A stretch of DNA of 62,403 bases from NCBI GenBank assembly GCA_009784275.1, contig WRCA01000001.1:1-62403 (forward strand), in the 5' to 3' direction. The notes beneath the pieces were generated by a model. That model was given only the letters and a program-made list of their open reading frames with translations. It had not been told where the DNA came from and searched no databases. Within the stretch, counting starts at the first letter, position 1. Every line of letters starts with the position of its first letter. Shown in pieces: positions 11,133 to 55,616 of the stretch. Source of the DNA: Alphaproteobacteria bacterium (GTDB lineage Bacteria; Pseudomonadota; Alphaproteobacteria; Rs-D84). The position numbers and the translations under genes were made by a program.

Positions 11133-11156
11133 AAACGCCCCTTTGGGCGTTTCTTT
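11133..11156. terminator. Bidirectional terminator
   Basis: The stem AAACGCCC/GGGCGTTT with loop CTTT ends next to the stop codon of the minus-strand Cys-rich gene. Confidence 0.75.
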
Positions 11157-14100
11157 ATGGCGCCAGCAGACTATCCTTTACATAATAAATATTCGTGCCA
11201 TCGTTCATTTTAATTTCTTTTCCCGATGGGGCCGGTGTAAGCGAAAGGTTACCATAATAAAGATTAGTTCCATCATAAATACGCAACGCAGGCGTTGTCG
11301 GCGGCAATGCCGTAGCGCGAACCATAACACTTGTAACAGTTGTGCCATCATTAACTTTTAATGTCTTATACGCCGCGCAATGGGTAATGCTGGCCGCGTT
11401 TGACCCGTCGCCAGCAGACTTGGTATTAGCAGGACATGGATATCTGCGGGAATCGAGCGCTGGGCTGTAATAATTGCTGCCCACCGGAGAGCAAACATTA
11501 CCATTAACAATTTCATCATACCACTGCCCTGCGCCGCATGTATCACAGAAAGGCATCAATAATGAAGTATTCAAAAACATTCCAACCTGGCACTGCGATA
11601 GATAACATACACCGTCTTGCAGTATATAGTTATTTTCGCATCCCATGGCAACGCAAGAGCTTTCTTCTTGATAATAATCGCGTCCGGACATCATCGTTGC
11701 ACCATCAATAAGCGAGCAAGTCGCATAGCAAGTATCTTCTGACGGATTTCCAGCAATCGACCATGGGTGCGTATTCGGGCAATCTGCCTCTGGCGCTGCT
11801 GCACCTTCGCAATAATGCCCTGGTGTACAAAGCACACAGGCGCTGTTGGCATAAAAATATCCGGCCGGACAAGCATTAGGATCCGGAACGCACATACCGC
11901 TGACCAGATTAAAGTCATTGTCACAGCTGGTGGCAACGCAAGTGTTCGCTATGCCGAAATAATCAAACCCAGTCCCATCGTCCGTAAGGATCCCTGGGAC
12001 CGAAGTACAAGGCCGTCTGCACAGCATTTGCGACGTGTTGCCCGGATCTGAATCAGGATGGCTGACCGGACAATCAAGCGGCATAGACATAGCGGCATTC
12101 GGGCAATAGGTACCAGCCGGACATATTGTTCTGTTCGGATTATATGGGGGGCTGTAATACCCGTTTCCTGCCAGCGAGCATGATGTAGTACCGCCTGCGG
12201 TATAATATCCGCCAATACAGCTCCACATCGCGTAAAGTGTTCCGCTGCTGCTGATAGTATGCGTTTGTCCCGCCGTATAACATGTACCGCCGCCATTCGG
12301 CTGTGTGCACCATCTGCCATTCGGAAAGTTAGTTCCGCTTGTATCGTATTCATAAGTAGAGTACGCGCGCGATAAAACCCCCAGCGCCGGCAATGTACAC
12401 TGGTCTTGATTACACAAAAGGGTTGCCGATATAGTTCCGATTACGTTCAAGATATTTCCACTTCCGCCGGCCTTGTCCAATGTCAAAACGGTGGTCCCAA
12501 TCACGCATGCACCAGCTATTAATTCATAGCCGCTGACACAGGCTGTGGCCACGCAGGTGCTCCCCCCCCCAAAAAACACCATTCCCATTACAGCCGTAGA
12601 ATTAGGCACAGTGGAAGTACTGCACGCACCCGGAAGAAAGCATTGCGTATTGGCTGATGACAACGGCAACGAGTTCGGATGGGTTAACGGACATTCTGTT
12701 TCTGATGACGAGCCTGCCGGACAAAATCTTCCTTCTCTACAAGGATGTGGATTATCTGGATCATTAGCTGGACACCAATAACCAGCAGGACACTGCGAGC
12801 ATGACAAGCCATCCAGAGTATATTGTCCAGCCGAACAGTTAACTATGCATCGGCCATTTTCGACGTGAAAGCCGCTGACGCAAGTAGCCGCCGCACAAGT
12901 GCTGGGCATGCCAAAATAGAAATATCCGGACATTGTTGCGGCATTCTGTGACAATGCGCAATTCGCATAGCAAAGCGATTGTGATGGATTTAACGGCAAA
13001 GAATTTGGATGAGAACCTGGACAGTCATCCATTGGGAAATGTCCACCAGGACAATACTTTCCAGCCAAACAATCCTGGCATGTATTACCGTCAAAATACT
13101 TTCCGGCATCACATCCCATAACACACATTCCATCAATAAGAGAGTAACCAGAAAGACAAGTCGCGATTTTGCATTCAATTGCCTGGCAACCTGACCCGCC
13201 GCCACTGCAATTCGGATTATAAATGCGCCCTTCCATTGTCGCTGCGTTTGGTTCCAACGGACATCCTCCGTCATATCTGTAATAGCAATCGGTAATTGCA
13301 GATTTTAAGCCATCGGAAACTGTCCAGGGCGCCGGACATGCAATCGGCGCAGCGGCGCAATTTTCCACATCCGGACATGCAGTCGGCTGGAAATTTGGGG
13401 CGGCCGCGGTGCCAGTTGTCGCACTGCTGACGGTTTTGCAATTGGGCTTATTCGGAATCATACTGTTTGCAATATTGGCGGTCAATGTGGGGCAACCCAC
13501 CAGCGCGCCCGGACAATAATTGTTCAGCGGACAAGGATATCGGTCCAGTTCGCGAAACGGGCTGTACCATCCGGCTTCAACAGGTACACAGGAATCATGA
13601 TCGGTGATTAGCGCATTAGATGGCAGCGGCGGCGCATAAAATCCGCCATTACAGCTCCACGCTGCATAAACACCGCCGGAAAATTGCCCGGTGACTTTTG
13701 CTTGCTGCCCGCCCGGAAAGCACATGCCGATTGCCACATTCCCGTATGCTACGTTATTACACCAAATACCCAATTGTTGGGGGACGGCCGATACCCCCGA
13801 TAATGGCGCTGTTCCGCCACTGGGTGTGCCCGGCGGCATCGGGATAGTACGCGTGCCCGGCATATACAATGGCACCCACTGACAAATAGAGCCATACCGT
13901 TCCAGCAAGCAAACGCTTGAAGCATTCATACTGTTTCCGCTAAAGGGAGTAATTGCCACATTAGCCGTTCCGATCGATGTTCCAGAAACACCGGCAACGC
14001 AGCAGGCAGTAGTGCTGCTGCAAGCATTACCACTACATGGTGCACCGTTATGTGCAAGCATCCCATTTTCGATCGTTCCCGATCCGCCCATTTTATAAAA

Positions 14101-14172
14101 TGTCGTAGACGCGGCATGCGCCGAGAGCGGCGCTATCAAAAGTACAATAAAGATGGCGAGGAGTTTTTTCAT
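11155..14172 (-). CDS. Large secreted Cys-rich repeat protein
   Basis: 1005 aa starting with a signal peptide (MKKLLAIFIVLLIAPLSAHA). I chose the ATG at 14172 over 14196 because it begins the signal peptide. The body has many Cys-rich modules of the type CxAGxYCPxG, CPAGYWCPANDPDNPHPC and CPAGTYCPNAAMSMPLDCP, resembling extracellular GCC2/GCC3 and other disulfide-rich repeats. Between them is a recurring sentence of Cys, a SHP/THP(N/D)S motif and a second Cys. The C-terminal ~75 residues hold a different short repeat (IYDGTNLYYG, NDGTNIYYVKDSL). No enzymatic motif is seen; an adhesin or surface-layer role is possible but unproved. It follows the fibre-like operon and the GIY-YIG cassette on the same strand. 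Confidence 0.85.
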   Translation of the reverse strand: MKKLLAIFIVLLIAPLSAHAASTTFYKMGGSGTIENGMLAHNGAPCSGNACSSTTACCVAGVSGTSIGTANVAITPFSGNSMNASSVCLLERYGSICQWVPLYMPGTRTIPMPPGTPSGGTAPLSGVSAVPQQLGIWCNNVAYGNVAIGMCFPGGQQAKVTGQFSGGVYAAWSCNGGFYAPPLPSNALITDHDSCVPVEAGWYSPFRELDRYPCPLNNYCPGALVGCPTLTANIANSMIPNKPNCKTVSSATTGTAAAPNFQPTACPDVENCAAAPIACPAPWTVSDGLKSAITDCYYRYDGGCPLEPNAATMEGRIYNPNCSGGGSGCQAIECKIATCLSGYSLIDGMCVMGCDAGKYFDGNTCQDCLAGKYCPGGHFPMDDCPGSHPNSLPLNPSQSLCYANCALSQNAATMSGYFYFGMPSTCAAATCVSGFHVENGRCIVNCSAGQYTLDGLSCSQCPAGYWCPANDPDNPHPCREGRFCPAGSSSETECPLTHPNSLPLSSANTQCFLPGACSTSTVPNSTAVMGMVFFGGGSTCVATACVSGYELIAGACVIGTTVLTLDKAGGSGNILNVIGTISATLLCNQDQCTLPALGVLSRAYSTYEYDTSGTNFPNGRWCTQPNGGGTCYTAGQTHTISSSGTLYAMWSCIGGYYTAGGTTSCSLAGNGYYSPPYNPNRTICPAGTYCPNAAMSMPLDCPVSHPDSDPGNTSQMLCRRPCTSVPGILTDDGTGFDYFGIANTCVATSCDNDFNLVSGMCVPDPNACPAGYFYANSACVLCTPGHYCEGAAAPEADCPNTHPWSIAGNPSEDTCYATCSLIDGATMMSGRDYYQEESSCVAMGCENNYILQDGVCYLSQCQVGMFLNTSLLMPFCDTCGAGQWYDEIVNGNVCSPVGSNYYSPALDSRRYPCPANTKSAGDGSNAASITHCAAYKTLKVNDGTTVTSVMVRATALPPTTPALRIYDGTNLYYGNLSLTPAPSGKEIKMNDGTNIYYVKDSLLAP

Positions 14173-14187
14173 GTTGTAAATTTTTTC

Positions 14188-14208
14188 AAAAATCACAAAG
14201 TGATTTTT
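14188..14208. terminator. Hairpin between GIY-YIG cassette and Cys-rich gene
   Basis: A perfect 9-bp stem AAAAATCAC/GTGATTTTT with loop AAA overlaps the left inverted repeat. It may end transcription in either direction. Confidence 0.5.
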
Positions 14209-14238: not shown

Positions 14239-14601
14239 TTAAAAAACTTTTTCTCCTGTCCTTGGATCTATCAAATCCCGCGCCGTCGGCATTCTATAAA
14301 TGTCTATTTTATCCAGTTCTTCCGCCAAATCCTTCCAATCAGGATTCATTGTTTCTATTAACCTATATTTCCATGCGCGATGCCAGTCTTTCAGATTTTT
14401 TTCTCTCCATAATGCTTTATCAATATACTTATAATATTCAAAATATCCCAGTTTATGAATATTTTTTTCTTTTGTAAAGCCTTTTATTAAACCATTCTTA
14501 TGCTCTAACATTCTGCGTTCAAGATCGTTTGTAATTCCTATGTATGTCGCTTTTGCCCGCTCATTAAACAAAATATAAACCCAAAAGTTATATTCTCTCA
14601 T
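14239..14601 (-). CDS. Small GIY-YIG endonuclease-domain protein inside an inverted-repeat cassette
   Basis: About 120 aa from the ATG at 14601 (MREYNFWVYILFN). The fold signature is clear: YIL, then TYIGITNDLERRMLEHKNG, a later conserved lysine and glutamate region, and KAYKY-like WHRAWKYRLIE. Proteins of this size (YhbQ/UPF0213 type) are nucleases or nuclease-like; roles range from repair to mobility. The longer ORF to 14640 would begin inside the inverted repeat, so I reject it. The stop lies 2 nt from the left repeat and the start 9 nt from the right repeat, so gene and repeats form one compact unit of 442 bp. Whether it is mobile is inferred. Confidence 0.8.
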   Translation of the reverse strand: MREYNFWVYILFNERAKATYIGITNDLERRMLEHKNGLIKGFTKEKNIHKLGYFEYYKYIDKALWREKNLKDWHRAWKYRLIETMNPDWKDLAEELDKIDIYRMPTARDLIDPRTGEKVF

Positions 14602-14610
14602 TTTCACAGG

Positions 14611-14644
14611 CCCTATTGCGGACCAAGTCCGCAATGACAAAAAT
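14611..14644 (-). repeat. Right inverted repeat of the GIY-YIG cassette
   Basis: Partner of 14203-14236 in inverted orientation. Its outer end touches the stop codon of the fibre-like gene (14644-14646), so the unit abuts that gene's 3' end exactly. Confidence 0.95.
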
Positions 14645-16584
14645 TACTCTATCCATATAAGTGCTCTTCCTACCGCCGGAGATCCCTGCGGCGCAGTTGT
14701 CGGAATAGTGTCAAACCGCGTATCATTCCCGGCCGCAATCGTACTTACTGCATTCCCAACCGGCAAGCGAGCATAAGCAACCGTGCCGCTGGTAATATTA
14801 TTTGCATTCTGCTGGTCTACATTTGCAACGTTACCCAAACCAACTTGCGCCTTGGTTACCGAATGAGGATTGCCTGTATCAGTAAGATGTGAAACTAAAT
14901 TCGTTTTCTGGGTCGATGTCAGCAGATCGCTTGCCGCTGCGCCTGAATCCACCATTTGACCACTGCTGTTAAACATTCCTATATTGCCGGTTGTCGCGCC
15001 TGGCACTTTATCCATAAACCCGGTTGTATCACTGGCATATACACGGAACGGAGTGTTGCTCCAGGTAATAACACCGCCAGTAACGTCTATGATACGATAC
15101 GAGTCATTATCGCCGTCATGCGTTTCGTCCACCAAAATATCAGCATAGTCGCCTACTGATGGGACTCTTGTAATTCCCCACAGACTCTGTGCCGATGCGA
15201 CTGTTGTCGGCAAGGCAGCCCTGGTTGCTGTCGAACCAAGGAAGTTTCCTAGATTTTCAAGGCTATCAAGTCTGTTGCTTAATGTAGTAATATCACCCGG
15301 TGTCGCCATAGTGCCATATGTTACCGTTACATTATTAGTGCTGGGGTTTTTCGCAACACTGGTAACTACATTACCGCTGCCGCTGTTGCTGAAAGCCTGG
15401 GTTGCGGATTCTGCAAGCAAGCCTTGGGCCGCCGTTGCAAAGAATGCAATATTTTCATATGCCGCGGTTCCCAGGGCAGAAATATCTACTTTATTCGCAA
15501 TCTGTGCAAAGCGGGGATCATTTCCGGCCGCAACCGTATTAACTGCATTTCCAACCGGCAGGCGCGCATAGGCAACCGTGCCGCTGGTAATATTCGCCGC
15601 ATTAGTTTGATCCACATTCACAACATTACCAAGTCCGACTTGCGCTTTGGTCGTCTGATGCGGATTAAGCATGTCTTGAGTATGCGTAAGCAATGCAGTT
15701 TGCAGTCCTTCGATGACATCATCCCCGATCGGTCCACCGCCGCCGCCCGTTGAAAAGCCTTGCGACAAAACCCATGACTGTGTTGCATACCCAGTCAAAG
15801 TTGGAATTTGTGGCTGATTGACCAAATCATCATAATCACCGGTGGTTGCAACCACTGCAAAACTCGGTTTGTTTGACAAATCCGCGTAAGAGCCACTGGT
15901 CGCAACCGTTGATAATGATGGTTTATTTTTTATAAAATCTACTGCCGAACTATTTCCCTGGGTCCAATCTGCTTGAGCTTGTGCCGGAAGTTGAGAAGAA
16001 GGAACTTTTCCGTCAGAGCCAAGTGATGCAACCCCACTATTCGCGCCTTTTTGTGATGCGGCAATGAAGTCCGAAGTAGCCGCCAATGCCGCAGTGCCCA
16101 AGTTTGGTTTGTTCAAGATTTCCGCGGCGCTGGATACAGCGTTCCAATCCGCTTGAACACCAATGTCCGAAGGTAACTGTGATTTTGGAACTGTACCATC
16201 AGAACCAAGCGATGCCACCCCACTGTTCGCACCTTTTTGTGATGCGGCAATGAAGTCCGAGGCAGCCGACAACGCAGCAGTGCCCAGTGTCGGCTTGTTC
16301 AAGATTTCCGCGGCGCCAGATACAGCGTCCCAGTCCGCTTGAACGCCAATGTCACTCGGTAATTGCGCTTTAGGAACTTTGCCGTCAGAGCCAAGTGATG
16401 CAAATCCATCAGACTGGCCCAGCGCCGTCCATATCGCCAACACCGATGCAGTGGATGCTTTTTGAATAAGTCCGCTGTCGACATAAGCCTTTGACGCCGC
16501 CACAACAGGGTCATCCGCATATGCGGATAACACCGGTGATGCCGTCAATGCAACAACTGCAAAGATTTTTATAAAGCGATTCAT
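14644..16584 (-). CDS. Secreted phage-tail-fibre-like repeat protein
   Basis: 646 aa with a signal peptide (MNRFIKIFAVVALTASPVLSAYA), then AASKAYVDSGLIQK, a motif shared with the two upstream fibre-like proteins. Residues ~62-205 hold a tandem repeat of 62 aa (ASLGSDGKVPKAQLPSD... ADWNAVSSAAEILNKP... DFIAASQKGANSGV). Two copies of the classic tail-fibre segment NPHxVTKAQVGLGNVxNV follow, near residues 305 and 600. Such modules normally form trimeric phage fibres. Here there is a Sec signal and no phage structural genes nearby, which suggests a cell-surface fibre. It is the last of four fibre-like genes behind an outer-membrane barrel. The C-terminus ends ALIWIE, unlike the G-Y-T-G ends of its relatives. 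Confidence 0.88.
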   Translation of the reverse strand: MNRFIKIFAVVALTASPVLSAYADDPVVAASKAYVDSGLIQKASTASVLAIWTALGQSDGFASLGSDGKVPKAQLPSDIGVQADWDAVSGAAEILNKPTLGTAALSAASDFIAASQKGANSGVASLGSDGTVPKSQLPSDIGVQADWNAVSSAAEILNKPNLGTAALAATSDFIAASQKGANSGVASLGSDGKVPSSQLPAQAQADWTQGNSSAVDFIKNKPSLSTVATSGSYADLSNKPSFAVVATTGDYDDLVNQPQIPTLTGYATQSWVLSQGFSTGGGGGPIGDDVIEGLQTALLTHTQDMLNPHQTTKAQVGLGNVVNVDQTNAANITSGTVAYARLPVGNAVNTVAAGNDPRFAQIANKVDISALGTAAYENIAFFATAAQGLLAESATQAFSNSGSGNVVTSVAKNPSTNNVTVTYGTMATPGDITTLSNRLDSLENLGNFLGSTATRAALPTTVASAQSLWGITRVPSVGDYADILVDETHDGDNDSYRIIDVTGGVITWSNTPFRVYASDTTGFMDKVPGATTGNIGMFNSSGQMVDSGAAASDLLTSTQKTNLVSHLTDTGNPHSVTKAQVGLGNVANVDQQNANNITSGTVAYARLPVGNAVSTIAAGNDTRFDTIPTTAPQGSPAVGRALIWIE

Positions 16585-16603
16585 TTTATGCTTTCATTCT
16601 TCT

Positions 16604-17578
16604 TTATATTTCAGAATAAGTGCCTGTTTCAATTTCGATGCAATCGAAACCGCCAGATGCGTTAGCAAGCAACATTTGACCGTCGCTGCAAACGAAATCA
16701 GACGCCGCAGCCGCACCAATCGCGGTTCTCGCAGCACCTGCATCAGACGCGGTCATGACAGAACTTCCTGTCCCTGTCGCACCGATTATCGATCTTGCAG
16801 CAGCCGCATCGCTTGCGCCCACCAAAGATATACCCGTAGCACCCGCATCCGTCAGGTCGCTTGAAGCATGCACGTGATCCGATGTAGCATAATCGGCCGC
16901 CAAGCCATCAGCATACAATTTCGCATCTGACAGAGCAATCGCTGCCGCGCCTGCCGCATCAAAGCTGGACGACGAGAAACCAGAATCAGTCAAGTTTCCG
17001 TCGGAATCCAATCCTGCGAAATGGCCAGCCGTAGCGCTTGCGACTTTATCCGCCTTGCCTGATTCAAGGTCAGAAACCCTGATATCAAGGGCGCTGTCAT
17101 CGAACGCTGCCGCTTGGATTGCCGTATAAACTGCTCCTGATGTGATCAGGTTGCTCGAATCGGATGTGACAACTGTATCGTATGCACTTGCCGCGATTTT
17201 TGCAAGCGTAACTGCACTGTTATCAATATCGCTGGTGGTAACGGTGTCTTTTTCCGCCAACTTACCCAGAGAGCCGATTGAGCCAGCAACAACACTTGCA
17301 ATTGCTGTTTGAACAGCACCGGAAGTGACCAAATTATTTGATCCCCCTGTAACTGTTGTATCGACTTCCAGATAACCAGCTGTGTCACCATTGGCGCCCC
17401 ATACGGCTACATTGCCAGACGCCGCACTGGCCGCACTGCCCGTTAGCCTGTTTTGTTTTTGGATAAGACCACTATCAACGTAGTCTTTTGACGCAACGAC
17501 CGGGGCCGCTGCGCTCGCCGCACTGAACGGTGCCATTACGGCGGCTATCAGCGCTAGCTTTTTCATGTTGGTTACCAT
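16604..17578 (-). CDS. Secreted fibre-like protein (YVDSGLIQK family)
   Basis: 324 aa; a strong ribosome site AAGGAG 7 nt before the ATG at 17578 decides for this start (MVTNMKKLALIAAV) rather than the internal ATG at 17566. After the signal peptide comes VVASKDYVDSGLIQKQNR. Alternating beta/coil segments rich in Ala, Ser, Asp and Thr follow (NLVTSGAVQTAIASVVAGSIG, KDTVTTSDIDNSAVTLAKIA), also seen in the next upstream protein. A tail-fibre-like stretch (DYATSDHVHASSDLTDAGATG) precedes the end CIEIETGTYSEI. It probably forms a trimeric fibre on the surface. Part of the operon from 20237 to 14644. Confidence 0.85.
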   Translation of the reverse strand: MVTNMKKLALIAAVMAPFSAASAAAPVVASKDYVDSGLIQKQNRLTGSAASAASGNVAVWGANGDTAGYLEVDTTVTGGSNNLVTSGAVQTAIASVVAGSIGSLGKLAEKDTVTTSDIDNSAVTLAKIAASAYDTVVTSDSSNLITSGAVYTAIQAAAFDDSALDIRVSDLESGKADKVASATAGHFAGLDSDGNLTDSGFSSSSFDAAGAAAIALSDAKLYADGLAADYATSDHVHASSDLTDAGATGISLVGASDAAAARSIIGATGTGSSVMTASDAGAARTAIGAAAASDFVCSDGQMLLANASGGFDCIEIETGTYSEI

Positions 17579-17631
17579 TTTCCTTCTCCTTCTTCTCTTT
17601 TTTGTTTTGTTTTATTTGTTTGTTTAATCTT

Positions 17632-18639
17632 TTAACCACCCGTGTATGTACCTACATATACCGTAGCACAAACCGGGCCATCAGAGCCATACTGTATTAT
17701 CTGTCCTTCCGTGCAATTCAATTTATCTTGTTTTTCATCCAGCAAGTCGCCTATGCGTCCATTTGAATTATAAGAATTCGGCAGCCATCCGTCATCCGAT
17801 CCCCACAAGGTTTCGTTAATCGTATCGACCTGGGCGGACTTATCCATCAAGTGCGTGTTTATTCCAGTAACGGTTTCATTCAGGCCCGTCAATGCCGTAG
17901 CCATTTCGCCGACCGAAGTCGACACATTGGACAGCGACGTATTCGTATTTATAAGCTCTGTATTAATCCCCGATATCGTGGTATTCAACCCGCTTTCGGC
18001 CGTCATGGCACGCTCGGTCTCTGTCGCAACTGCGCCATCAACATAACCTGTTGTAGCATATCCGCTTAACGCTGCACTTGTTATATATCCAGCATCATTT
18101 GTCAGCAACGAAACATTATTGCCGGTCTGCAATGCGGTATCTGCCTTGCCCAGCGATGTAACAATGCCGGACGTCAGTTTACCAGTCGTAACTGCGCCAT
18201 CATCAATGTCAGATGTCGCAACTGTATCCTTCATCGCCAAAGCACCCAGATCGGAAACATTCATGGTTGAAAGTTGGCCAAGTCCAAGACCGCTTATCGA
18301 ACCCGAAACGAAACTATCAAGCGCCGAATAAACCCCGCCTGATGTTACCAGTGCAGTGGAATCTGATGTAACCGAACCGGTAATCGCACGATAATCAACC
18401 ACTCCCGCTGTTCCGGTTGCCATGACAACCTGATTTGCCGTACCAGTAATATTATTCTGTTTGCCCGCCAGAGAAGTTGTAACATCGGTTTTGTTCGCCT
18501 TCTTACCAAGGCCGCTGTCAACATATTCTTTTGACGTAACTATCTCGTCATCTCCCAGTATCGCATGTGCCGCCGCAAAAGGCGTGGTAACCGCGGCAAC
18601 CAATGCAAATCTTGAAAGATTTTTCAATAGTTTGTTCAT
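17632..18639 (-). CDS. Secreted coiled-coil fibre-like protein
   Basis: 335 aa with a signal peptide (MNKLLKNLSRFALVAAVTTPFAAAHA) and the family motif VTSKEYVDSGLGKK. It shares VTSGGVYSALDSFVSGSISGLG and KDTVATSDIDDGAVTTGKL with the downstream paralogue. The second half is a long coiled coil (LNTTISGINTELINTNTSL, then LTGLNETVTGINTHLMDKS), and it ends in VCATVYVGTYTGG. The conserved Gly-x-Tyr-x-Gly type end recurs in two neighbours and may be an anchoring or trimerisation element. Function unknown; a surface fibre is the best guess. Confidence 0.85.
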   Translation of the reverse strand: MNKLLKNLSRFALVAAVTTPFAAAHAILGDDEIVTSKEYVDSGLGKKANKTDVTTSLAGKQNNITGTANQVVMATGTAGVVDYRAITGSVTSDSTALVTSGGVYSALDSFVSGSISGLGLGQLSTMNVSDLGALAMKDTVATSDIDDGAVTTGKLTSGIVTSLGKADTALQTGNNVSLLTNDAGYITSAALSGYATTGYVDGAVATETERAMTAESGLNTTISGINTELINTNTSLSNVSTSVGEMATALTGLNETVTGINTHLMDKSAQVDTINETLWGSDDGWLPNSYNSNGRIGDLLDEKQDKLNCTEGQIIQYGSDGPVCATVYVGTYTGG

Positions 18640-18677
18640 TTTATTTTTTTCTTGTCTCTCTTGTTTATCTTTATTTT

Positions 18678-19391
18678 TTATATTCCGGTGTATTCGCCCG
18701 TAACAATGCCCACAGGCTTCAGGTCTGTTTGTCCGCTCGTCACTTTTATAACATAAAGCCCATCTTCATCGGCGGTTGGGAATGAAATTGATGTAAGCCA
18801 TTCTTCTTCTGTTCCTATAAATCCTTGTCTTACGGCAAGCTCATACGCAGATTCCCCTGTTACACCCTGGGGCCCTTGCGCGCCTTGGAATCCTTGCGCG
18901 CCCTCTGCGCCTTGCGTACCTTGGGCACCTTCTGGGCCTGGGGTTAATTCAATAGCAGAAATAATTGAATCTATCTGGCTTTTTGTATAAGTATCCGATT
19001 CCAAAACATCTATGCGCCCGTCAAGACGTGATTCTGCACTGTCCAACTGCGCAAGAGTTGCATAATCTGATAAATCTTTCGGCGTTACCCCGCCACCCAG
19101 CGACTGTCCTTTGCCGGCCAAAAATTGAGTAGAAGATAATCGTGCATTTGCGCCAGACACCCCCGACTTCCCCAGATTGACAGGTTTAACCGATGGCGCC
19201 GCCGCCAAAGGCTTTGCACCGCTGATCCCCACCGCGCCTGTGGTAGAAAGTCTGGTTCCGGCCCTGGCTGCTGTTGGCGCCGCGACAGGAACACCAGCGC
19301 TGGTACCAATGGCACGCACACTGGACGCCGAATGCGCCGAACCGGTAATAATTGTTATTGCAATAAAACTTGTTACAAAGCTTTTATTCAT
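18678..19391 (-). CDS. Secreted protein with coiled coil and collagen-like repeat
   Basis: 237 aa with signal peptide MNKSFVTSFIAITIITGSAHS. An Ala/Gly-rich N-terminal part leads to a heptad-type stretch (LAQLDSAESRLDGRIDVLES). About ten Gly-X-Y triplets follow (GPEGAQGTQGAEGAQGFQG), then GESAYELAVRQGFIGTEEEWL, a sentence I know from phage tail fibres and bacterial collagen-like proteins. It ends GIVTGEYTGI, like its neighbours. Collagen-like plus coiled coil implies a trimer. It lies 6 nt after the outer-membrane barrel gene, so the two are probably co-translated and may work together. Confidence 0.87.
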   Translation of the reverse strand: MNKSFVTSFIAITIITGSAHSASSVRAIGTSAGVPVAAPTAARAGTRLSTTGAVGISGAKPLAAAPSVKPVNLGKSGVSGANARLSSTQFLAGKGQSLGGGVTPKDLSDYATLAQLDSAESRLDGRIDVLESDTYTKSQIDSIISAIELTPGPEGAQGTQGAEGAQGFQGAQGPQGVTGESAYELAVRQGFIGTEEEWLTSISFPTADEDGLYVIKVTSGQTDLKPVGIVTGEYTGI

Positions 19392-19397
19392 TTTTTA

Positions 19398-20237
19398 TTA
19401 AAACTCTAACCTTAACCCTACCCCGAATGTGTTATTCAAGATCCCGCTTGTTTCAGATATAAATGTATCGACTACGCCACCATTCATAAGCGGGTCAATC
19501 GCTATTTCCTGTTTGTGACCGGTCATATAAGACAATTTATATGTTAGCCCCAAATACAACTGTTCCGCTATCTTTTCTTCTATGCCGATCATTGCCTGGC
19601 CCGCGAATCCCATGGAGGTCTTACTTAATTCGGCATCCGGTGCGAAATATATATCTGCAAACTTGGTTGTAAGCATACCTATTCCAACACCAAAACCAGT
19701 ATATATAGAAGTGGTCGTCCATATATTTATAGTATAAAGTCCATTCAGCATGAAAAATTGACTGGAAAGATCAAAAGTTCCACCAGTATCCTTGTCAGAA
19801 TACTTACCCGTATTAACATAGTTCAATTCCGCACGCCATCTGGGGGCGAACTGATACCCAGCGGCTATATCAAACCCCAGCTGCTGAACAAAAGAAAACG
19901 AATCGGTAAGCTTATCCCTCGTGCCGGATGCATCACTATATTCATTCTGGAAAGAAGCGAGATTGAAATCAAACCGCGCGCCTATATAAAACTTGCTATC
20001 AAATTTTTCGCGGCCGGCACCCACCGCAGTGTACCTTTGGGTCCTAGAATCCAAACCATATATAACATCATTACTTTTTGAAGCAGGGGCCGCAGCTTGC
20101 TTTCCTGTCGCAGTATACACGGGGGTTTCAGAGTCCAGACCGTATATAACATCTTTGCTTTTTGCGGCGGCATTCGCACCATCGACAAAAACGAATGCTA
20201 TTATGGGGAGCGCAAAAATTATTTGGCCGTATTTCAT
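19398..20237 (-). CDS. Outer-membrane beta-barrel protein, first gene of the fibre operon
   Basis: 279 aa with signal peptide (MKYGQIIFALPIIAFVFVDGANA), alternating amphipathic strands (FYIGARFDFNLASF, WRAELNYVNTGKY, IYTGFGVGIGMLT, LYLGLTYKLSYM) and a terminal phenylalanine (GVGLRLEF). All are hallmarks of Omp25/OmpA-type eight-stranded barrels. Before the barrel the mature N-terminus has a direct duplication (SKDVIYGLDSETPVYTATG and SNDVIYGLDSRTQRYTAVG). It heads the operon and is preceded by a ~150-nt leader containing a small ORF and a terminator-like hairpin. Possible anchor for the fibre proteins. Confidence 0.87.
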   Translation of the reverse strand: MKYGQIIFALPIIAFVFVDGANAAAKSKDVIYGLDSETPVYTATGKQAAAPASKSNDVIYGLDSRTQRYTAVGAGREKFDSKFYIGARFDFNLASFQNEYSDASGTRDKLTDSFSFVQQLGFDIAAGYQFAPRWRAELNYVNTGKYSDKDTGGTFDLSSQFFMLNGLYTINIWTTTSIYTGFGVGIGMLTTKFADIYFAPDAELSKTSMGFAGQAMIGIEEKIAEQLYLGLTYKLSYMTGHKQEIAIDPLMNGGVVDTFISETSGILNNTFGVGLRLEF

Positions 20238-54705: not shown

Positions 54706-54730
54706 AAAAAACCGGCGAAAGCCGGTTTTT
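54706..54730. terminator. Bidirectional terminator
   Basis: AAAAACCGGC/GCCGGTTTTT with loop GAAA between the cold-shock gene and the convergent outer-membrane protein gene. Confidence 0.9.
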
Positions 54731-55616
54731 AAAACTCGAATCTTATCCCTGCCATTGCCATGCCGTAAAAGGCATTATGCACGCTGAATACATCTTTGGA
54801 CTTTTCCCCGGCTGGACTGTTCGCAAGCTCGTTATTCAAAGCCCACTGTATTTTCGGAACCCAAAGCAATCGAAGTCCCAAATCAAGAAACACATTTTCG
54901 GCCAAGCCATAAGAAAAACCTAATGCGCCAGACAACGCCACATTATTAGTAGTCGTTGTGGATGTATAAAAGCCGCCAAGACCATCCTCGAAATCCGCCA
55001 ATAAAGACTGATTCAACAGCTCCCCTTGGATGTCCGTCAGGTTCAACACTGTTTCCGAATGCGCGTAACCCATTCCAAAGCCTATGTATGGGATGAACTC
55101 CTTTATAGGCTTTTGCAACCCGTCAAAAAAATCATAATATGCCATTGCAGAAAATAATTCCGTAGTCACCGTAGATTGAACCCCGGAAAATTCCGCTTCG
55201 TACAAATCTCCGACAGACGACCTTACGTCACCCCTGAACATAGGCGCAGCATTATAATCCGATTGACCGATATGATCCCAATTCGCTTCCAGCCGCCACT
55301 GTGGGCTTCCGGCCACCGCCCAACCGATACCGACGCCGCCCGCCCAAGTAAAGCTGCTGAAGCTTTTTGCCACAGGCATATCGCCTATATTTATATATCC
55401 GAGGGATGGGTCACCTGGGTCGACTTCAAAAAGTACAAAACCCAAATCATTCTTGATACTGCCTGTGCCAAACGCCATACCGCCGCGCACAGCGATGGTT
55501 AACCGACCGCCATCGTCGCCAAAATATCCGCTCGGCGCACTATATTCCCAATTCGCATGTGCCGCCGGTGCAAGTGATATCAGTAATAAACCAAGAGCAA
55601 TTTTTGTAGTTTTCAT
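54729..55616 (-). CDS. Outer-membrane beta-barrel protein
   Basis: 295 aa with signal peptide (MKTTKIALGLLLISLAPAAHA), alternating strands (LTIAVRGGMAFGTG, WAGGVGIGWAV, WRLEANWDHIGQSDY, FIPYIGFGMGYAHSE, VALSGALGFSYGL, VFLDLGLRLLWVP) and a terminal aromatic (MAGIRFEF). Typical small OmpA/Omp25-like barrel. The architecture resembles the barrel at 19398-20237 (shared YIGFG/GFGVG strand), so they may be distant paralogues. Monocistronic. Confidence 0.87.
   Translation of the reverse strand: MKTTKIALGLLLISLAPAAHANWEYSAPSGYFGDDGGRLTIAVRGGMAFGTGSIKNDLGFVLFEVDPGDPSLGYINIGDMPVAKSFSSFTWAGGVGIGWAVAGSPQWRLEANWDHIGQSDYNAAPMFRGDVRSSVGDLYEAEFSGVQSTVTTELFSAMAYYDFFDGLQKPIKEFIPYIGFGMGYAHSETVLNLTDIQGELLNQSLLADFEDGLGGFYTSTTTTNNVALSGALGFSYGLAENVFLDLGLRLLWVPKIQWALNNELANSPAGEKSKDVFSVHNAFYGMAMAGIRFEF

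Follow-up and report, generated by a model that had tools for sequence, protein, structure and literature searches.

Why would a gut alphaproteobacterium carry, in one operon, a gene for an outer-membrane barrel followed by genes for exported proteins built from phage-fibre and collagen-like modules? We analysed a 62,403-nucleotide stretch of such a genome (the window) together with related genomes. The family holding this operon is probably GTDB Rs-D84, a group of gut Alphaproteobacteria with reduced genomes. We consider it reasonably likely that the operon encodes surface-displayed, probably trimeric coiled-coil or collagen fibres, specific to this family and used for attachment.

Organization and conservation of the operon

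Five consecutive ORFs occupy positions 14644-20237 of the minus strand, the outer-membrane barrel first, then one collagen-like and three fibre proteins, with intergenic gaps of 6, 38, 53 and 19 bp counted from the barrel end. All five proteins (5/5) have a signal-peptide-like start according to our own heuristic. These ORFs and their starts bear out the preliminary description of the locus as a barrel plus four exported phage-fibre/collagen-like proteins. The motifs quoted there are all found, namely NPHQTTKAQVGLGNV and NPHSVTKAQVGLGNV, ADWDAVSGAAEILNKP and ADWNAVSSAAEILNKP, and GESAYELAVRQGF, as are the YVDSGL motif said to be shared by three proteins (AASKAYVDSGL, VASKDYVDSGL and VTSKEYVDSGL) and the three C-terminal tails of Gly-x-Tyr-x type (TGTYSEI, GTYTGG and GEYTGI). 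From the barrel onwards, the genes and their downstream neighbours are as follows.

19398..20237, minus strand: slot 0, predicted outer-membrane barrel, 279 aa (Pfam, AlphaFold, Foldseek, homologues in the family)
18678..19391, minus strand: slot 1, exported collagen-like fibre, 237 aa (Pfam Collagen, PHROG tail families, [SAPT]-[VIA]-[RK] tag)
17632..18639, minus strand: slot 2, exported fibre, 335 aa, tag VTSKEYVDSGL, tail GTYTGG (ORF, motifs, viral-contig comparison)
16604..17578, minus strand: slot 3, exported fibre, 324 aa, tag VASKDYVDSGL, tail TGTYSEI (ORF, motifs, DNA tag pattern)
14644..16584, minus strand: slot 4, last fibre, exported, 646 aa, tag VVAASKAYVDSGL, repeated phage-fibre modules, tail ALIWIE (PHROG, phage tblastn, IW[VIM][EQ] tail)
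14239..14640, minus strand: gene with a GIY-YIG endonuclease domain (Pfam GIY-YIG 2.5e-15), 3 bp downstream of slot 4
11155..14196, minus strand: large exported Cys-rich repeat protein, in the same position in a congeneric genome (G001, L044:1265-4279)

The GIY-YIG gene is an associated or inserted gene outside the conserved core, and the congeneric genome (L044) has an unrelated gene in its place. The Cys-rich repeat protein has no match in Pfam, PHROG or NCBIfam, and its linkage to the operon is confined to the same genus.

Across the family, the operon runs in the order of barrel, S-V-R-tagged fibre, and then one to several fibres. An exported gene on the same strand lies directly downstream of the barrel in 56/59 strong barrel loci in relatives, with a gap of -22 to 92 bp. 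Because the operon recurs in relatives and the tag described below is strongly enriched in it, the arrangement is not due to chance. The same data bear on whether these are merely a loose set of unrelated exported proteins with low-complexity repeats, whose synteny is incidental. The fibres do have an Ala/Thr-rich low-complexity composition, and distant members have little in common beyond their ends, but across genera the slots keep their order and their specific ends, and the gaps are nearly constant. These conservation data already contradict a loose set, which we regard as very improbable.

The barrel protein

Structure prediction indicates that the co-encoded protein is an OmpA-type 8-stranded outer-membrane barrel. 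The predicted strands span residues 82-278 (nt 19401-20000), and the AlphaFold model has a pLDDT above 90 across most of this range. The model matches OmpA, NspA, OmpW, OmpX and Ail in Foldseek, and the sequence matches Pfam OmpA_membrane above the cut-off (1.1e-5). At the N-terminus, a signal peptide precedes a disordered extension of ~50 aa, which carries two copies of K-S-x-D-V-I-Y-G-L-D-S-x-T-x-x-Y-T-A. The protein thus resembles OmpA/NspA-type barrels in its fold and Pfam match, but it lacks the OmpA periplasmic domain, has the disordered extension and is operon-linked to fibres. Barrel homologues are present in nearly all family genomes sampled; the contig scan for them was built on an alignment of eight closer barrel sequences. 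The pore of an 8-stranded barrel is too narrow for translocation of a fibre, and from the established topology of OmpA both termini of the barrel should be periplasmic.

A short tag behind the signal peptide

YVDSGL is one form of a wider consensus, x-I-A-S-(K/Q)-x-Y-V-D. This tag immediately follows the predicted cleavage site of the signal peptide in 96/123 fibre proteins of slot 2 or later, as against 10/275 other nearby exported ORFs (Fisher p 1e-54), and its Tyr is near-invariant (95/96). Alignment columns are conserved for ~9 residues past the cleavage site, after which the sequence varies. As a DNA pattern, the tag has 136 matches in 60 family genomes versus 1 for the reversed pattern, and 2 matches in 18 genomes from other families of the order. 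In the window it is found at nt 18508-18537 in slot 2, at nt 17465-17494 in slot 3 (genome-wide pattern match 17474-17494) and at nt 16468-16506 in slot 4. The mature N-terminus of slot 1, ASSVRAIG, belongs to a tag type of its own, [SAPT]-[VIA]-[RK], present in 54/56 slot-1 proteins.

A search for co-occurrence of YVDSGL with the barrel, as the preliminary description had suggested, thus reveals strong enrichment in operon fibres, but the tag is also found in genes unlinked to the barrel; some genomes have around a dozen tag sites, the majority so placed. We note a resemblance between the tag and TTKNYVD, a phage fibre module in a viral contig (L181). The rarity of interior copies (90 N-terminal sites versus 12 within 44,504 interior residues) rules out that YVD is simply a phage repeat duplicated throughout the shaft.

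Variable shafts between conserved ends

Slot 1 contains a Gly-X-X run at ~nt 18849-18941, the module GESAYELAVRQGF and the tail GEYTGI; its match to Pfam Collagen (7.9e-5) is under the curated cut-off. Slots 2 and 3 end in similar tails, C-x2-GQ...C...GTYTGG (nt 17635-17715) and C-x2-GQ...C...TGTYSEI (nt 16607-16690), respectively. The tail ALIWIE of slot 4 (nt 14647-14670) is unlike the other three; tails of this IWVE/IWIE type (IW[VIM][EQ]) are on the last tagged fibre in 28/28 operons having one.

Hydrophobic residues in the fibres recur with a periodicity of 3.5 residues (mean z 2.85), the spacing of a coiled coil, with none at 2.0 or 3.0. A monomer AlphaFold model of a fibre, made from six sequences, has a pLDDT of 36.6 and is informative only at a C-terminal hairpin, where the value is ~70. 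The three tagged fibres have no PDB match by sequence search, and no S74 or other tip domain is found in the fibres with Pfam or NCBIfam. A YadA-like trimeric autotransporter was rejected, as the C-terminal YadA anchor domain is absent, with no Pfam match to it in any fibre.

Both fibre ends are conserved, whereas the shafts between them vary and are exchanged among species. Among close relatives, the length of slot 4 ranges between 293 and 724 aa. Between two related loci (L057/L068), the slot-2 core agrees at 96%, compared with 79% for the barrel and 54-58% for the other slots; in another pair (L068/L074), the slot-3 core reaches 89% and the barrel 78%.

Relation to phages

Slot 4 and the collagen-like slot 1 both have matches among PHROG tail-fibre families; for slot 4 the best is at 1.8e-18, and that to tail collar fibre is at 1.6e-13. 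In tblastn against phage, slot 4 matches at 29-44% over parts, and slots 1 and 3 give no match. Residues 57-246 of the slot 2 shaft match viral contigs, whereas its tag and tail do not. Such tail-fibre and short shaft matches would be expected if the operon were a remnant or domesticated prophage tail locus (a decayed phage or tailocin). However, none of the 28 neighbouring proteins scanned in the window is a phage head, packaging or tail protein, the lone "virion structural" match being a LemA-like housekeeping protein, and no phage structural gene is apparent in the ORF lists of related loci. TerL scores above cut-off in 0/60 family genomes, the barrel is encoded by no viral contig in our search, every gene of the operon starts signal-peptide-like, and the operon is conserved family-wide. 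The genome itself has no match to Pfam Phage_fiber_2. The absence of capsid, terminase and tail genes claimed in the preliminary description agrees with these results, and a prophage remnant, which we consider extremely improbable, is rejected on the lack of TerL above cut-off, of phage structural neighbours and of a barrel in viral contigs. What the operon shares with phage tail fibres is the shaft modules; its fibres differ in having signal peptides and bacterial ends, with all other phage genes absent.

Possible location and role of the fibres

Our preferred reading, attachment fibres on the cell surface, is supported by the operon linkage, the tag enrichment, the placing of the IWVE-type tail on the last tagged fibre, the 3.5-residue periodicity, the barrel fold, the shaft swapping and the absence of TerL above cut-off and of the barrel from viral contigs. 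All five proteins would be exported by Sec, and the barrel would fold into the outer membrane. The other four would form elongated fibres whose shafts, of coiled-coil or collagen type, are made from modules also found in phage tail fibres. The N-terminal tag would most likely hold or deliver the fibre at the envelope through a partner there, either the co-encoded barrel or another component; the short conserved C-terminal cap would set the register of the (tri)mer, and the shafts, which are variable and exchangeable, would touch partner cells, mucus or other gut substrates. From the preliminary reading as a bacterial surface fibre system with phage-like parts, we thus retain a non-prophage, family-wide operon of exported fibres with phage-like shafts and an 8-stranded barrel; trimerisation, outer-membrane passage, docking on the barrel and adhesion are what we infer.

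Several points weaken this reading: the barrel is too narrow to pass a fibre and should have both termini in the periplasm, both fibre ends are conserved whereas the C-terminal tip is variable in MAT (mosaic adhesive trimer) and phage fibres, and some tagged proteins are encoded at a distance from any barrel. The fibres may instead be periplasmic spacers, coiled-coil struts that join the barrel to the Pal/peptidoglycan layer and set envelope spacing. This fits the expected periplasmic position of the barrel termini and an operon without a translocator, and in many relatives (L055, L057) the operon lies beside genes for a Pal-like OmpA lipoprotein and FtsE/FtsX-like proteins. However, this neighbourhood is absent in the window's own genus, the widely varying slot 4 lengths are unlike known fixed-length spacers, shafts are exchanged between species, and phage-like receptor-binding modules would be unexpected in struts. 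We find periplasmic spacers a fairly unlikely explanation.

The tag could also be a secretion signal for a type IVb-pilus-type secretin, through which the fibres would exit as secreted or tip adhesins, the barrel being a separate anchor or receptor. TcpF and CofJ carry such an N-terminal signal (T4bP-SS) for secretion by the TCP and CFA/III pili. A T4bP-SS is a short peptide at the mature N-terminus, with a critical aromatic residue at its core, and these signals differ between bacterial families (PMC9565799). The tag follows this pattern, being short, N-terminal and family-specific with a near-invariant Tyr, and like TcpF and CofJ the tagged fibres are Sec-exported in genomes that have a secretin; the signals have no sequence similarity, and here there are many candidate cargoes rather than one. 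The genome encodes a PilN-type secretin (TIGR02520 4.7e-72, under the curated cut-off; PF00263) with a TcpQ partner, a secretin is present in 45/45 good-quality family genomes, and one genome (G004) has a full PilO/ATPase/T2SSF operon. A tagged gene adjoins the secretin in the window's own genome (L127) and in one other (L132 in G003), but this adjacency, seen in 2/12 family genomes, is weak. Elsewhere in the order, the secretin is found in families without the tag, and the resemblance to TTKNYVD also speaks against a secretion signal. We consider this explanation unlikely. Its fuller form, in which the family-wide tag routes Sec-exported phage-like fibres out through the secretin with the dedicated barrel as receptor or anchor, seems to us quite unlikely; if true, a reduced-genome symbiont would show an exchangeable fibre set that leaves by a general secretion-tag pathway.

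Comparison with known fibres

The preliminary description had seen no precedent for such a system, yet bacterial surface fibres with phage-like architecture are already known: the MAT fibres of Bdellovibrio bacteriovorus have signal peptides and are surface-displayed (PMC10769870), and they offer a precedent that supports surface display here. Both are Sec-exported bacterial fibres with phage-fibre-like shafts and a conserved N-terminal end, encoded outside prophages by several paralogues per genome; the MAT features found in the operon fibres are the signal peptide (by heuristic) and a phage-fibre-like elongated body. In MATs, the signal peptide is followed by a conserved beta-rich domain of ~130 aa, and the adhesive C-terminal tips are diverse, often with an S74 chaperone domain (PMC10769870). 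Judged by this description, the operon fibres differ in having a conserved N-terminal end of ~9 residues in place of the beta-rich domain, and a short conserved cap instead of a varied adhesive tip or S74; their variable part is the shaft, and their genes lie in an ordered operon together with the barrel gene. The kind of fibre is thus already known and the operon variant is new, a likeness to MATs minus two of their defining features. A literature search on this kind of operon found no publication that contained every term searched for.

Collagen-like adhesins (Legionella Lcl, streptococcal Scl) also have a short Gly-X-X run in an exported protein and give weak NCBIfam matches to slot 1. These matches are far under the curated cut-offs (21.5 bits for Lcl versus a family cut-off of 500) and limited to the triplets, and slot 1 lacks the Lcl C-terminal domain and LPXTG.

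Bacteria of this lineage, probably the order Rs-D84, to which Ca. Enterousia from animal guts belongs, are predicted to rely on partner cells through contact machinery yet to be described (PMC12306168). The fibre operon, both conserved and diversifying, offers a concrete candidate for this machinery, and its role in these tiny-genome gut bacteria is probably to touch or hold partner cells. It also bears on the open question of what holds MAT fibres on the cell: a candidate partner is co-encoded here, and the tag of about nine residues marks the fibre end concerned. Lying just past the export signal, the tags provide a handle on how such fibres are displayed.

Organization and conservation of the fibre operon

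The five consecutive genes are on the minus strand with gaps of 6, 38, 53, and 19 bp, and their products contain every motif quoted in the preliminary description. The outer-membrane barrel that it proposed agrees with Pfam, which assigns the product of the first gene (slot 0) as OmpA-like, and the phage-fibre resemblance is borne out by PHROG tail-fibre profiles hitting the 646-aa protein (slot 4) and the collagen-like protein (slot 1). Signal peptides were called by a heuristic, not SignalP. The number of phage structural genes among the window neighbours is 0, as had been claimed; by our reading of the ORFs, these neighbours are housekeeping genes, including SecA and DNA polymerase III fragments, ribosomal L25, and a TatD-type hydrolase. 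The genome is 0.89 Mb, and the GC content of the window is 45%.

Features of the window and a second operon copy.
14644-20237, minus strand: fibre operon
19398-20237, minus strand: barrel gene (slot 0)
14239-14640: small gene (GIY-YIG domain)
11155-14196: 1013-aa exported Cys-rich repeat protein, without family match
54729-55616: further exported outer-membrane beta-barrel protein (OMP_b-brl, below cut-off), unlinked to the fibres
L039:9798-14062 (same genome): second, divergent operon copy (barrel, collagen-like, tagged fibre)

The congeneric genome has the Cys-rich protein gene at the corresponding place, but there the small gene separating it from the operon is replaced by an unrelated gene (L044:4279-4632), whose product looks like a four-helix-bundle protein. 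This difference suggests an insertion hot spot.

A barrel homologue was found in 55/60 family genomes, and in 121/124 with a profile search; the best match outside the order was 4e-22, versus <1e-40 for operon barrels. An exported gene follows directly downstream on the same strand at 56/59 strong barrel loci. The gene order is constant: the barrel, then a ASSVRSLGGSGTY-like mature start, then one to several A-x-IASKGYVD-like starts. The final fibre ends in (A/T)-x-IW-V/I-E, and middle fibres carry C-terminal caps such as CVLTYNNSxYxWEVIxR or, in the window's relatives, C-x2-GQ-x-L...C...TGxYTE. In several species of the large genus (L055, L057, and similar loci), genes for a Pal-like lipoprotein and FtsE/FtsX-like proteins adjoin the operon; these neighbours are absent beside it in the window's genus.

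Across 17 operons with four slots, the barrel averages 63% identity and the shafts 38-47%; the N-terminal 48 residues average 50-65%, and the C-terminal 35 residues of slot 4 average 72%. Individual slots are swapped between species. Slot 2 is 96% identical between L057 and L068, against 54-58% for their other slots, and slot 3 of L068 and L074 is 89% identical, while L074 elsewhere groups with L057. We infer that such exchange is typical of surface or receptor-contact loci.

Predicted structure of the barrel and fibres

The confident barrel prediction shows eight strands and, between these and the signal peptide, a disordered extension of ~50 aa; Foldseek matched this model to OmpA, NspA, OmpW, OmpX, and Ail. 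The extension (residues about 26-75) is an internal duplication, KSKDVIYGLDSETPVYTATG / KSNDVIYGLDSRTQRYTAVG, and the barrels of relatives hold a single copy of a similar segment (VVYGGVQSSDG). The predicted fibre monomer model was not usable. Heptad periodicity is evident in the fibre sequences (mean z 2.85 at 3.5 residues).

The tag after the signal peptide

A short tag is present in 96/123 proteins of slot 2 and beyond versus 10/275 other exported ORFs of the same loci, using a regular expression composed after data inspection and run identically on the controls; most of those ten encode fibres that lie close to split operons. Column by column, the tag region reads A-x-A, x, I, A, S, K/Q, x, Y, V, D; cleavage falls immediately ahead of the tag, and 95/96 keep the Tyr. 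Internal copies are rare (12 in 44,504 residues). The tag core was also checked separately at the DNA level: a degenerate pattern matched 136 times in the 60 family genomes and once when reversed. It matched twice in 18 genomes from the order's other families and about 48 times in 237 genomes of the class, most of them larger. Of the 136 matches, 80 are within 12 kb of a barrel (72 downstream on its strand); the remainder include dispersed solitary tagged genes (notably in genome G003) besides contig breaks and split operons. The tag is thus the mark of an exported protein class wider than this operon. The dispersed expansion in G003 (L130-L137) consists of short exported proteins, mostly encoded by solitary genes, with a ARAEIASKSYVDSLA start and a tail that contains Cys (...LFAAP).

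Slot-2 matches in viral contigs are confined to shaft residues 57-246, and neither its tag nor its tail has a match there. A barrel gene was absent from every viral contig. The tag may derive from a phage module, since TTKNYVD occurs inside one viral fibre.

Relation to known systems and possible export route

Of the proposed mechanism, the analysis shows the operon, the starts resembling export signals, the conservation of both ends, the barrel fold (as a prediction), the periodicity, and the exchange. In the further steps, the fibres would trimerise, cross the outer membrane, dock, and mediate adhesion. Crossing is the weak point, because an 8-stranded barrel cannot serve as a channel for fibres. 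Bdellovibrio fibres with signal peptides do get to the surface, and the partner holding them is unknown (PMC10769870).

A secretin is universal in good-quality family genomes; the PilN type is paired with TcpQ across the order, and some genera add PilO, T2SSE ATPase, and T2SSF. At the corresponding locus of the window's genome, TcpQ and secretin alone were seen. The published Rs-D84 description does not mention this type IVb pilus (PMC12306168).

Loci with TcpQ and PilN-type secretin.
G000:C2:28231-28731 (L145:6380-9989): TcpQ and secretin
L148:2896-10136 (G004): full type IVb pilus operon
L158:5705-13266 (G013): TcpQ and secretin locus

Type IVb pili export TcpF and CofJ by means of a short signal at the mature N-terminus that contains a key aromatic residue (PMC9565799). 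Given this precedent and the secretin in the lineage, a comparable secretion-signal role of the tag is a testable alternative, which we consider unlikely.

The fibres resemble the mosaic adhesive trimer (MAT) fibres of Bdellovibrio bacteriovorus in working, but two tested MAT-defining features, the ~130-aa beta-rich N-terminal domain and the varied C-terminal adhesive tip/S74, are missing, so we do not file them as MAT. The preliminary description knew of no description of such a system; bacterial fibres from phage-like parts are a known kind, and the operon here is a variant new to it.

Barrel relatives that bear a name come from metagenome-assembled Alphaproteobacteria, under the labels 'Alphaproteobacteria', 'Rickettsiales', or 'Proteobacteria bacterium'; we read their isolate codes as pointing to termite-gut samples. 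Genome size is 0.5-1.1 Mb throughout the sampled order, and most species belong to one genus. The sampled order appears to fit the GTDB order Rs-D84, which includes Ca. Enterousia and is described as reduced-genome, partner-dependent gut bacteria (PMC12306168).
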